NCBI GenBank assembly: GCA_902779395.1
Contig: CACZBK010000010.1
Coordinates: 22,371 to 86,370 of the forward strand
Origin: an uncultured Lachnospiraceae bacterium
GTDB taxonomy: Bacteria > Bacillota > Clostridia > Lachnospirales > Lachnospiraceae
Direction of reading: 5' to 3'
Length of the DNA: 64,000 bases
The position numbers and the translations under genes were made by a program. The first letter of the stretch is position 1, and each line of letters opens with the position of its first letter. The notes beneath the pieces were generated by a model that was given only the letters and a program-made list of their open reading frames with translations, made no database searches and had not been told where the DNA came from. Below, piece by piece: positions 60,262 through 64,000 of the stretch.

Positions 60262-61455
60262 ATGAACATTCTTGTTATCAACTGCGGAAGCTCATCACTT
60301 AAGTACCAGCTTATTGATTCCGAGAGCGAAAAAGTCCTTGCAAAAGGTCTTGTGGAACGTATAGGGATCGACGGGAGTGAGCTTACCCATACACCTGCCG
60401 GGAAGGATAAGGTAGAGATAAAAACAGATATTCCCGATCATTCGGTAGCGGTAAAGATGGTGATAGAAGCACTTACCGATCCCGTACACGGTGTGATCAA
60501 ATCCCTTTCGGAGATAGGTGCAGTGGGACACCGCGTGGTACACGGCGGTGAGAAGTTCAACAAGGCAGTGATCATAGATGAGAGTGTGATCAAGGATATC
60601 GAGGAACTCAGCAGCCTGGCACCTCTTCACAATCCCGCAAACCTTACCGGTATACATGCCTGCGAAAAGAATATGCCCGGGGTTCCCCAGGTAGCAGTGT
60701 TTGATACCGCATTTCATCAGACTATGCCCAGAAAGGCTTATATGTACGGCCTTCCTTATGAGTATTATGAGAAGTACAAGATACGCCGCTATGGATTCCA
60801 TGGTACCAGTCATGATTATGTTTCAAAGCGTGCTGCCGAGATACTCGGAAAAGACCGCAAGGATCTGAAGATCATCGTCTGCCATCTGGGCAACGGTGCA
60901 TCGATCTCCGCAGTAAAGAACGGCGAATGCATCGATACTTCTATGGGACTTACTCCTCTTGAGGGTCTGTTCATGGGTACCAGAAGCGGAGATATGGATC
61001 CCGCTATTTTCGATTTCATCTGCGAGAAGGAAGGGCTTACCCCCGCAGAGATGAATACCATCCTGAATAAAAAGAGCGGTGTGCTGGGCTTATCCAACGG
61101 ACTCTCCAGTGATTTCCGTGATCTGTGCGATGCAGCCGATAACGGTAATGATATCGCCGCAATGACACTGGATGCATACAGCTACCGTGTGGCTAAGTAC
61201 ATAGGTTCCTATGCAATGGCTATGCAGGGCGTGGATATCATAGCTTTCACTGCCGGAATAGGCGAGAACAGTTACGGCGTAAAAACCCGTGTATGCAAAT
61301 ATCTGGGATATCTTGGTGCGATAATAGATGATGAAAAGCTTAAAGTGCGCGGAGAAGAGCTCATAGTTACCGAGCCCGGCAGCAAGGTTACCGTAATGGT
61401 AGTGCCCACCAATGAAGAGCTTGCGATCGCAAGACAGACCCTGGCGCTGCTGTAA
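60262..61455 (+). CDS. ackA: Acetate kinase
   Basis: A 397-residue ASKHA-fold kinase converting acetyl phosphate and ADP to acetate and ATP, the substrate-level phosphorylation step of fermentation. It keeps [10 protein letters not shown] at the N-terminus, RVVHGG, the active-site His in [19 protein letters not shown] and the Arg in GTRSGDMDP. Phosphotransacetylase, often adjacent in Clostridia, is not next to it. It has its own promoter and terminator, so it is a single-gene unit. Confidence 0.98.
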
Positions 61456-61483
61456 TAGTCTGCTGAAATTGAATATTATCTTT

Positions 61484-61510
61484 AAAGGCGTGGCTCCGGC
61501 CACGCCTTTT
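61484..61510 (+). terminator. Terminator of ackA
   Basis: Perfect 11-bp stem AAAGGCGTGGC (61484-61494) with GCCACGCCTTT (61499-61509), TCCG loop, followed by TTTTCTTATT. It may also stop the convergent minus-strand cassette, though the T content on that side is lower. Confidence 0.93.
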
Positions 61511-61595: not shown

Positions 61596-62324
61596 TTAAA
61601 GGTCATTGTGAGAATAGATGATTACTCTTATTCTTTTTTGTCCAAAATCCTTTTCTTCGTATGTTTTTATGAAGCTTGAAGTATTGTGTATAACGTTGGC
61701 CTTATCGTAAATATAAAAGAATAATTCGGAGGCCTCATAATGCACCATATCTGAAGCAATCTCTTCGCTCAGTTGCCTCTCTGTTGTTCCCAAGTGGGTA
61801 CACTTGAGCTCAATAACAGAGTTTATGGAGTTAATGACGATATCCTTCCTGATGGTATGATGGCCGGAATCCTGAACACTTTCTGTACGAGTATCAGGAA
61901 ATATGGCTGTCAATAAAGGTAACATCAACTTTTGAAGGTCATATTCGTTTTCTATATGAAATTCAACCAAATGATCTTTGATGCCTGGACTGCACTTATC
62001 ATGTATTTTTGTTTTATACAATTTACGGCAATATTCCGGAAAATTATTGAGAATGGTAGATATAATGTTTTCCGTATCTTTCCTGTTTTCTATATCTAAC
62101 AGGGTTTTAATGAAGGATCTGACATCCTCTTTTTTTTCGGAAAGATCTTCCGCTACAGAACGATTTGAAAATCGGTTCTTTCTAAGCACTGCAACATCTC
62201 TGAGCTTTGCAGCCTCAGAAGTCTTTCCTTGTGTAATTAAGTAATCTATTAGCTTTTCAATAGCTGACTCGTAGTCAGGTACAGAGGTTGCATATAGTAT
62301 TTCATCCATATATTCATTTATCAT
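61596..62324 (-). CDS. PD-(D/E)XK nuclease-like protein of an ATPase-nuclease cassette
   Basis: A 242-residue protein. The N-terminal half is helical (DYESAIEKLIDYLITQGKTSEAAKL). The C-terminal half has the PD-(D/E)XK core: Glu127 in ENEYDLQ, RKD with Asp161, then Glu172 and Lys174 in VIELKCTHLG, a helix with EEIASDMVHY, and strands LFFYIYD and RIRVIIYS. The D-x10-E-x-K spacing fits an active nuclease. Its start overlaps the ATPase stop by 11 nt, so the two products are made together. Likely role: the effector of an ATP-controlled DNA-targeting system. The family name is my reading of the motif and needs a profile search. Confidence 0.75.
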   Translation of the reverse strand: MINEYMDEILYATSVPDYESAIEKLIDYLITQGKTSEAAKLRDVAVLRKNRFSNRSVAEDLSEKKEDVRSFIKTLLDIENRKDTENIISTILNNFPEYCRKLYKTKIHDKCSPGIKDHLVEFHIENEYDLQKLMLPLLTAIFPDTRTESVQDSGHHTIRKDIVINSINSVIELKCTHLGTTERQLSEEIASDMVHYEASELFFYIYDKANVIHNTSSFIKTYEEKDFGQKRIRVIIYSHNDL

Positions 62325-63474
62325 TTGTGGTTCCCCTCCCCCATCTTAGATAGAATAAAAACAGTGATTCAATGATATAGATGATATTATCTTTCCATTC
62401 TATCACTTCATATGAACGATCATTTGCATTTAGGACATCCTGAATATTTTTGAGATAGTTTTTAACGGAAATTATGGATGGCATATTTTTACCTTTTATT
62501 AGTTTCAAAATACGGTTATATAAGTCATCAAAAGAGATATCAGTAAAAGGTGGATCAAGTGCAAGTGCCTCTAAAATAAGTCCATATAAATCAATCGTAC
62601 CTAAAGTATTTGTCTGATAAATAGTTCTTTTTTGTCCTCGTGAATTCTTTCCATTTTGAATTATTTTAACCACCTTATCATAATCCAGATTTAGCGTTGA
62701 GAAACGAAATGCTCGTTTTACCAATGTTTCATCTATAGAGAAGTCATTTCCTTCGGCTAATACGCATATATTGAGACATATTAATTGCATTAGTTGCGGT
62801 GAAGCAATACTTTCCATTGTGAGAAGGTCAATTATTTTCTTGGGAATCTTTTTCTTAAGCTCTACAAATCCTTTTTCAGGAATCTGCTTCAGCTCATCCC
62901 TGTTCCATGTCTGCATATCAATTATGCTGATCCTTCCCTGAAGATCCGGATTGGTGCGAATCGTATCATCAACCCTGTGCGGGAGCGATGCTATTACAAC
63001 ACGTAATCCCTTACGGATGGCATCTTTAAATTGCTGCGCCATGAATATCTGCATTTCATGAGATGCGTAGTGGAAGTCATCCATTAACAGCACAAGGTCA
63101 TGTTCCTTAAAGTATGCCAGGACGCTTTCTTTGGTTAGTGAAAAGGTTTCCTCCATGTAATCAGCTTTGTATCTGCCTGATTTTGTTGTGCCTGTATGGG
63201 GCATTCCGGCTTTAGTACCAATCTGGATCCACAGCTCCTGAGGATTTATCATATCTGATCCTGAAATTTCGACAATGCGGTCAATTCCGATCACTTTTTC
63301 ACAAAGTACAGTTTTTCCGATTTTAGACGGACCGGAAATAAGAGTAAGGTAGCCACTTACACTTAAAGCCTGCATCAAACGTTCTTCATAGGTAAAGCCC
63401 GAACTCATGGTGCGTGTTATATAGGTGCTCTCAGGAAGAGAACCTGGAATGAATACTTCATAGTATTTCGTCAT
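62314..63474 (-). CDS. AAA/STAND-like ATPase of an ATPase-nuclease cassette
   Basis: A 386-residue cytosolic ATPase. A short N-terminal part (FIPGSLPESTYITR) precedes Walker A GPSKIGKT (48-55), Walker B LVLLMDDF (127-134), a sensor-1-like strand RVVIASLPHR (158-167), and a helical lid (about 195-260). The last 100 residues (DISFDDLYNRILKLIKG, SIISVKNYLKNIQDVL) look like a winged helix. AAA proteins of this outline act as switches that gate an effector. The partner is the nuclease encoded next. Ribosome binding site AAGGGAGC is about 8 nt before the ATG. The cassette differs from its neighbours in higher AT and lacks housekeeping links, which suggests acquisition. Confidence 0.75.
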   Translation of the reverse strand: MTKYYEVFIPGSLPESTYITRTMSSGFTYEERLMQALSVSGYLTLISGPSKIGKTVLCEKVIGIDRIVEISGSDMINPQELWIQIGTKAGMPHTGTTKSGRYKADYMEETFSLTKESVLAYFKEHDLVLLMDDFHYASHEMQIFMAQQFKDAIRKGLRVVIASLPHRVDDTIRTNPDLQGRISIIDMQTWNRDELKQIPEKGFVELKKKIPKKIIDLLTMESIASPQLMQLICLNICVLAEGNDFSIDETLVKRAFRFSTLNLDYDKVVKIIQNGKNSRGQKRTIYQTNTLGTIDLYGLILEALALDPPFTDISFDDLYNRILKLIKGKNMPSIISVKNYLKNIQDVLNANDRSYEVIEWKDNIIYIIESLFLFYLRWGRGTTNDK

Positions 63475-63505: not shown

Positions 63506-63534
63506 ATTATAGAGTTTTAATGTGATTTTGTAAA
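63506..63534 (-). promoter_or_regulatory. Promoter of the ATPase-nuclease cassette
   Basis: On the minus strand TTTACA (63534-63529), 17-nt spacer, TATAAT (63511-63506). Transcription would start near 63499, giving a 25-nt leader. The repeat array begins 6 bp upstream of the -35. Confidence 0.7.
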
Positions 63535-63540
63535 GCTAAA

Positions 63541-63708
63541 AGATATATTTAGAGAATAATAGCGTTATTTATTGCGAATTAGATATTTACAGACGGTTTT
63601 AGATATTTATAGGCAGATTTAGACGATATTAGATATTTTTAGAAAATTAAGATGATTTATAGGGATTATAGATATTTTTAGAGAATTTAGATGATTTTAG
63701 AGTTTATT
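63541..63708. repeat. AT-rich array of about 20-bp degenerate repeats upstream of the cassette promoter
   Basis: Units with the core AGATATTTWTAG start at 63541, 63581, 63601, 63631, 63651 (as GATGATTTATAGG), 63670 and 63689, with a half-unit at 63621. Spacing is mostly 19-20 bp, about two helical turns. No spacers are present, so this is not a CRISPR array. Likely a multi-site regulator binding region or an intrinsically curved upstream activating region. Confidence 0.75.
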
Positions 63709-63720
63709 GATGGTTAATCG

Positions 63721-64000
63721 TTTGTTTTCCCAAAATACTCTGCAAGTATGCGTTAAATATACCGTTTCACGAAACGAAGTCCCTGAAAATCAATGGACGC
63801 CGGCTTTGCGGACGATCGCAGTGATTACGGGATAATTCCACGAAAAGCTGTAAACCGGAAGCCAGACGCAGCGGATGCCGGAAAATACGCAGCACAAGGT
63901 GCTAAGGCTGTTTGAAAACTTTCCGAAAAATAGTCGCCAACGCAGGCCCGAGATCAGAAAAGGCCTAAACGAGGCAAAGCCCGGTGAAGGTCTATACGCT
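63721..64000. other. Unassigned GC-richer sequence at the right edge
   Basis: Between the cassette (start 63474) and the window end there is no gene I can support. After the repeats, composition changes abruptly to GC-richer DNA. The plus strand has a 40-codon frame at 63793 (MDAGFADDRSDYGIIPRKAV...) that ends in a stop. The minus strand is open from the edge to a stop at 63790 (about 69 codons, unusually rich in Cys, Trp and Phe). Small hairpins such as AGCAC-AAG-GTGCT (63891-63903) occur. It could be part of a structured RNA, a repeat element or the end of a gene beyond the window. Confidence 0.3.

Follow-up and report, generated by a model that had tools for sequence, protein, structure and literature searches.

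A jointly inherited ORC/Cdc6-like ATPase and DpnII/MboI-type nuclease pair with a phased promoter array, a probable mobile defence module of Lachnospiraceae

Organization of the operon

The window, by which we mean the whole 64,000-nucleotide stretch of Lachnospiraceae DNA that was analysed, carries near its end a two-gene operon encoding a putative ATPase followed by a putative nuclease (Table 1). The first-pass annotation of this DNA had described two overlapping reading frames, the Walker motifs of the ATPase, three catalytic residues of the nuclease, a promoter belonging to the pair and an AT-richer composition, and all of these were recovered. The G+C content is 0.343 over positions 62001-63000, compared with 0.414-0.531 in the preceding 1-kb steps of the window (before 62000). 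An unusually regular phased array upstream of the promoter had been missed.

Table 1. Positions of the operon and its regulatory features in the window.
Feature	Positions	Strand	Remarks
ATPase ORF, 386 aa	62314..63474	-	open frame, ATG start; looks like ORC/Cdc6-clade AAA+; proposed sensor/regulator
Nuclease ORF, 242 aa	61596..62324	-	open frame, ATG start; PD-(D/E)XK, DpnII-MboI family; proposed effector
Reading-frame overlap, 11 nt	62314..62324	-	from ORF coordinates
Walker A, codons 48-55 (GPSKIGKT)	63310..63333	-	residues 48, 53, 54 and 55 invariant in 18/18
Walker B, codons 128-133 (VLLMDD)	63076..63093	-	D132 and D133 invariant in 18/18
Stretch with nuclease active-site codons D161, E172, K174	61803..61844	-	invariant in 18/18
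Promoter-like TTTACA-17-TATAAT	63506..63534	-	11/12 consensus
Phased array, ~15 ten-base units	63544..63701	-	TCTAAANNNN-like, head to tail, on the operon sense strand

The TATAAT of the promoter-like site begins 37 nt before the ATPase start. Because such sites were not more frequent in the region than in shuffled sequence (7 versus 9.7 expected), what speaks for this promoter is the quality of its match and its position. A TATAAT-like box (at least 5/6 matches) begins 28-59 nt before the start at all 23 loci inspected, a count made with no control set. The box is preceded by TG in 14/23 loci, and TTTAAA occupies the -35 place in 8/23.

The contig ends with window base 64000, which limits the sequence upstream of the ATPase to 526 bases. 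Its last 241 bases (63760-64000) are visibly richer in G+C than the array; they had no second match in the window's genome, and no known gene was recognised in them. On the other side of the operon, a terminator-like hairpin at 61484-61509 follows ackA (region 60262-61509). In both congeners examined, which are free of the cassette, a mecA-like gene (named by eye) lies next to ackA, which is not the arrangement in the window. Insertion of the cassette between these two genes was considered, but a clean empty site cannot be claimed; in the window's genome the best counterpart of the mecA-like gene is just 39% identical and sits on a different contig.

Identification of the nuclease and the ATPase

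The nuclease belongs to the Pfam family PF18742 (DpnII-MboI; E 5.3e-29), and in PADLOC it matched three Aga_Helical-REase profiles (best E 1.7e-15). When a 12-row nuclease profile was compared with the PDB, one convincing solved relative was found, EcbAgaN (23wq, E 3.4e-14). The sole other match at 0.1, a TCTP homologue (E 0.0023), was taken as chance. EcbAgaN serves as the DNase in an Argonaute system that defends by abortive infection, in the course of which it degrades genomic DNA (PMC10620215). Residues D161, E172 and K174 were invariant in 12/12 homologues and again in a later set of 18/18, and their spacing (11+2) is identical to that of D298, E309 and K311 of EcbAgaN. A structure model of the nuclease, built from a two-row alignment, had a mean pLDDT of 56 and was set aside.

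The ATPase fell under the Pfam cut-offs (AAA_22, E 1.1e-4) and matched the PADLOC candidate profile PDC-S59 (E 3.2e-15, profile positions 149-399 of 428). An AF2 model from a 16-row alignment reached a pLDDT of 87.4 and a pTM of 0.81. The first Foldseek match of this model was Cdc6 (1fnn, E 8.6e-10). An archaeal ATPase (2qen, 5.4e-9) was also found, and further matches included an ORC-Cdc6 complex (7jgr), a second archaeal ATPase (2fna), a MuB filament and, amid many RuvBL chains, ORC2 (1w5t). TM-scores by query were modest (0.38-0.52), with RuvBL/RuvB chains close behind. Because the best matches are Cdc6, archaeal ATPases and ORC proteins, the modelled protein looks like an ORC/Cdc6-clade AAA+ ATPase, a label to be read in the light of those modest scores. 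The first-pass annotation had called the protein AAA/STAND-like; the AAA+ part stands, and we prefer the ORC/Cdc6 clade over STAND. In the whole-protein model the C-terminus runs strand 312-314, helices 315-325 and 334-350, strands 358-361 and 364-367, and helix 370-378, a succession compatible with a winged helix.

Matches of the ATPase profile to RecA spanned just 26 profile positions at the P-loop and were rejected. Weak matches to LAGLIDADG_2, LMBR1, CTXphi_pIII-N1 and Sig70_bacteroi1 in Pfam/NCBIfam were below cut-offs and were treated as chance.

Pairing and joint inheritance

Genomes of the same family, order and class were scanned for the ATPase, which proved patchy: matches were found in 12/397, 8/392 and 3/391 genomes respectively, counts that each include the window's own genome and also fragments. 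The 12 family genomes held matches at 16 places. Eleven of these were full-length ATPases; the other five comprised a broken copy (L035, two places), two fragments and one weak partial match. An intact nuclease adjoined 10/11 full-length ATPases, and in the eleventh (L029) the nuclease is cut by a TAG codon. The order and class scans added eight further genomes with a full-length ATPase, a fragment in G695 having been dropped, and the nuclease lay immediately downstream in 8/8. Two of these nucleases are shorter (227 aa at L094; 223 aa at L096, where homology continues beyond the stop), and both retain the D, E and K residues. Every full-length ATPase found at ~40% identity or more was accompanied by at least a remnant of the nuclease. 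A phage of Clostridioides and a replicon of Paenibacillus carry the pair as well. Preliminary scans with the single sequence, a narrow query, had found one relative in genome contigs and none in viral contigs.

The distance matrices of ATPase and nuclease were correlated across 18 pairs (r = 0.88, against a best of 0.37 in 2000 permutations). Incomplete, broken or short nucleases kept L002, L029, L094 and L096 out of this set. The correlation shows joint inheritance of the pair and does not speak to joint function. The gene junctions of the 18 homologous pairs range from -23 to +51 nt. Together, comparative sequence data strongly support the two genes as a genuine, jointly inherited unit.

A 91%-identical relative (L002) comes from a Lachnospiraceae genome of the buffalo rumen, and its contig stops inside the nuclease. 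In this locus an IS21-like pair (a transposase-like gene and an IstB-like ATPase, named by eye) separates ATPase from nuclease (L002:1719-4182). Two divergent copies of the pair per genome were seen in G111 (L027, L034) and G131 (L025, L033).

Occurrence of either gene alone

The first-pass annotation held that the cassette would be called into question by ATPase homologues occurring regularly without the nuclease. Such homologues exist among distant relatives on viral contigs and plasmids (~23-35% identity), and not among the full-length ATPases at ~40% identity or more. In the flanking DNA fetched, no nuclease match was found beside 17 viral-contig homologues (~28-35% identity, several of them being almost the same sequence) or beside the plasmid ATPases L020-L024 and L102. 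The plasmids with a lone ATPase come from Selenomonas, Niallia, Arthrobacter and Pseudarthrobacter, and a Paenibacillus plasmid (L022) carries a truncated copy, 46% identical, also without nuclease. A nuclease was likewise missing at L035, where the ATPase is broken, and beside the ATPase fragments L036 and L037. Lone ATPase relatives that were scanned also matched PDC-S59. A scan of the phylum gave matches in 4/398 genomes (G000, which is the window's own, G753, G1114, and G1433 with a weak partial match); the ATPase of G1114 is identical to that of the Selenomonas plasmid and has no nuclease.

Two further features of the lone ATPases were observed. L020 (Selenomonas plasmid pSRC6) and L102 share an identical ATPase and same-looking neighbours, with a Fic gene and a set of type I restriction-modification genes in the vicinity. 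At L051, L052 and L057 the genes around the ATPase (~30% identity) resemble, by eye, the baseplate and tail genes of P2-like phages, so that the ATPase looks like cargo carried by a phage.

The nuclease profile matched 16/397 family genomes, 9 with an ATPase and 7 without a match to it. Matches without the ATPase were strong in G108 (E 4.2e-77) and G029 (5.5e-72) and weak in five others. The gene before the lone nuclease is YhcG/DUF1016-like in G108 (L098:5200-7200) and a ResIII-type helicase in G029 (L099:2883-5558). The nuclease thus looks like a swappable effector. Given the distant ATPases without nuclease and the 7/16 nuclease genomes without ATPase, neither protein strictly needs the other; since each also occurs without its partner, the two are modules firmly paired in this clade only.

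Genomic neighbours

Flanking genes, compared by eye, differ from locus to locus. Ten neighbours picked by eye were searched against PADLOC (1e-5), of which six matched and four did not. AbiLi (L094) and HEC-01A (L096) lie beside pairs, while the decayed, nuclease-less ATPase L035 is flanked by Wadjet JetC and JetD and an OLD-like protein; a neighbour at L034 gave a weak REase_II match. The 135 neighbours taken without selection (all ORFs of 110-1150 aa no further than 4.5 kb away; 20/21 loci contributed, L025 being the exception) hit 107 PADLOC families at 1e-10, a number that counts families rather than proteins and has no background rate for comparison. Argonaute was absent among the 25 families listed of these 107, and neither protein of the pair matched an Ago profile. 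A recurring methyltransferase beside the pair, as expected of a DpnII/MboI type II restriction-modification system, was not recognised in the ORF lists (by eye), and on this reading by eye such a system is less favoured.

A phased array precedes the promoter

The array consists of TCTAAANNNN-like units, 7/15 of which begin exactly with TCTAAA, spaced at steps of 9-11 nt with one step of 21. The chain runs to 15 units, and none of 1000 dinucleotide shuffles went beyond 7. Simpler cores gave chains of 11 (TCT; shuffles at most 7), 13 (CTA; at most 8) and 7 (TAA; p 0.029). These cores were picked from the window sequence itself, and the motifs used below were chosen after the first loci had been viewed.

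For comparison between loci, a phasing statistic was fixed on the first loci, namely the power of TAAA/AAAA at a period of 9.5-11 within the 150 nt that precede the start. On eight later loci it gave p < 0.05 against shuffles in 6/8 (L090,.018; L092-L094 and L096, <.002; L097,.04), with.156 at L091 and no value at L095; L092-L094 represent one genus. Controls were 75 AT-rich upstream regions (0.65 or more) from the window and the fetched loci. Phasing exceeded the 95th percentile of these AT-matched controls at 14/21 loci, where ~1 is expected, and did not at L018, L019, L032, L034, L091, L095 and L097. At 15/23 loci, chains of TAAA at 9-11 nt exceeded in length those of mononucleotide shuffles (p < 0.05); the loci without this excess were L002, L019, L026, L033, L034, L035, L095 and L097. 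Clean arrays of 12 units (consensus CCATTAAAAA) and 13 units were found at L092 and L025, respectively.

The units are oriented. Phasing of TAAA/AAAA on the sense strand exceeded that of TTTA/TTTT at 18/21 loci, the exceptions being L018, where the order is reversed, and the loci L019 and L095, where both scores are zero; the TTTA/TTTT score is zero at 16/21 loci, meaning fewer than five such motifs. The exact patterns are also confined to the operon in the genomes searched. Four TTAAA at 10 bp occurred in 3/10 genomes, always solely before this operon. None of five congeners of these three genomes had the pattern, and neither did G000 or G131, where the array is built of different units. In the window's 3.58 Mb genome the sole occurrence of three TCTAA at 10 bp is the one before this operon; two congeners lacked it. 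By eye, the unit sequence seems to track ATPase relatedness between loci. No array was seen before the lone ATPases (of 18 that were scored, 15 had zero power and the maximum was 5.0), which says little because most of these loci are 49-66% G+C.

Since the exact arrays tested were found at the operon alone and the units seem to change in step with ATPase relatedness, we propose the array as a candidate operator for a protein that would contact each helical turn once and in a single orientation, the simplest candidate being the ATPase encoded by the operon. The main alternative sees no operator here: the array would simply set promoter strength, whether as intrinsically curved DNA, as a kind of UP element or as the silencing target of one of the host's nucleoid proteins. 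A/T-tracts phased at ~10 bp can bend DNA, and the array abuts the -35/-10 elements, with the TTTAAA at the -35 place noted above. Pure A-tract bending needs no single orientation, so the strand bias of the units argues against this explanation, as do the confinement of the exact patterns in the 10 and 3 genomes searched and the apparent tracking of the ATPase. We regard it as possible and somewhat doubtful.

Discussion

The module at this locus is real, mobile and jointly inherited, and judging from its sequence it is probably defensive. The first-pass annotation had suggested a defence cassette. Its cassette part is upheld by the pairing, the distance correlation and the patchy distribution, and by the neighbourhood survey it had called for, in which the pair is conserved among close relatives amid variable neighbours; the PADLOC search it had also called for linked each protein to a profile. 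Its defence part is the best reading of the domains and genomic company, and from these a defence role appears likely. We put the probability of the reading as a whole, a horizontally mobile two-gene anti-invader module with an ATPase-bound array and a recruited nuclease, at roughly 55%.

In such a module the ATPase would assemble on AT-rich duplex DNA, cooperatively and dependent on ATP, with one contact per helical turn. Assembly on its own promoter array would limit expression. When the ATPase meets invading or replicating foreign DNA, or is titrated off the array by such DNA, the nuclease might be recruited or clustered. It could then degrade DNA, either that of the invader or, as with EcbAgaN, that of the host too (abortive infection). 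A more specific version makes the array a built-in sensor: a head-to-tail ATPase polymer, one subunit per turn, would silence the operon until invading AT-rich or replicating DNA titrates the ATPase away and derepresses it, and polymer on the foreign DNA would activate a suicidal nuclease. We consider this version unlikely as it stands; if true, it would be an immune system that measures foreign DNA against its own promoter as a self-reference.

A selfish stabilisation (addiction) unit, in which the nuclease is a toxin held in check by the ATPase and phage is not specifically sensed, would also have overlapping or closely spaced genes, a patchy and mobile distribution, and decayed copies such as the broken nuclease of L029, the broken ATPase of L035 and the L002 locus with its IS21-like element between the genes. 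Relatives of the nuclease persist without the ATPase, and relatives of the ATPase persist alone, which is unusual for an antitoxin; conservation of the ATPase active site throughout also argues against addiction, and we judge it quite improbable.

Very improbable is a transposition module or its remnant, with a TnsC/TnsA-like target selector and end-cutting nuclease and the array as the element end. The weak TniB match of one relative's ATPase (E 2.5e-4, below cut-off), the MuB filament among the Foldseek matches and the known links of NTPase and REase pairs to transposable elements (PMC5289972) point that way, but transposase- or integrase-like ORFs occur at single loci (such as L033, L093 and L095) with none recurring (by eye), and the array of the window abuts the operon promoter. 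A housekeeping DNA-maintenance pair would keep its active sites intact, as here, yet the occurrence in few family genomes, the absence of an ATPase match in two congeners among the 397 family genomes and the differing neighbours (by eye) contradict the fixed housekeeping locus that the first-pass annotation had named as the contrary case, and this explanation can be dismissed as hardly credible.

If the anti-invader reading is true, a compact two-gene unit of ORC/Cdc6-type ATPase and DNase, found here mainly in Clostridia, joins the defence systems with an ATPase known only as a candidate profile. It would also suggest how a dangerous DNase is restrained, by a helically phased operator of fixed orientation and up to ~15 units. 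The array makes the DNA target of an ORC/Cdc6-type defence ATPase directly testable.

Comparison with known systems

The ATPase matches PADLOC PDC-S59, in whose name we take the S to mark a single-gene candidate; unlike such a candidate, it has a nuclease partner adjoining it here.

Systems that combine an ATPase and a nuclease in two genes were compared next to it. PARIS and Gabija share this logic (PARIS: PMC9122126), but they have an AAA_15/AAA_21-type ATPase and a DUF4435 or TOPRIM nuclease, unlike the pair described here. Membership in either was rejected, as neither protein matches them in Pfam or PADLOC at E <= 1. In the literature, where subscription journals were mostly outside the scope of the search, no description was found of a defence pair of ATPase and DpnII-MboI nuclease, including in the available portions of PMC10853773, PMC12839542 and PMC9122126, or of a phased or tandem-repeat promoter array for such operons.

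The long-B Argonaute-nuclease system BPAN has a homologous nuclease domain in EcbAgaN, with identical D-X10-E-X-K spacing (PMC10620215), and pairs it with an Argonaute, whereas the nuclease here is paired with an ATPase. In SPARDA, filament formation activates a PD-(D/E)XK effector, the DREN nuclease (PMC12205087). By analogy this could serve as a model for an ATPase assembly that switches on the nuclease, although no Argonaute or APAZ was recognised in our pair.

Members of the ORC/CDC6 family are described as a mainstay of conflict systems, some combined with REase domains (PMC10853773), so the logic of ORC/Cdc6 plus REase is already known. The prokaryotic relatives of CR effectors, the ORC/Cdc6-clade NTPase-REase conflict systems, likewise couple an ORC/Cdc6-type AAA+ protein to a REase-fold nuclease and are mobile and linked to conflict (PMC10853773, PMC5289972). 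The available portions of these two sources make no mention of a phased promoter array, and the pair described here is without HerA/FtsK or an inactive REase. As in those systems, a REase-fold nuclease (PF18742) lies in the same operon; here it is of the DpnII/MboI type, and ATPase and nuclease are two separate genes.
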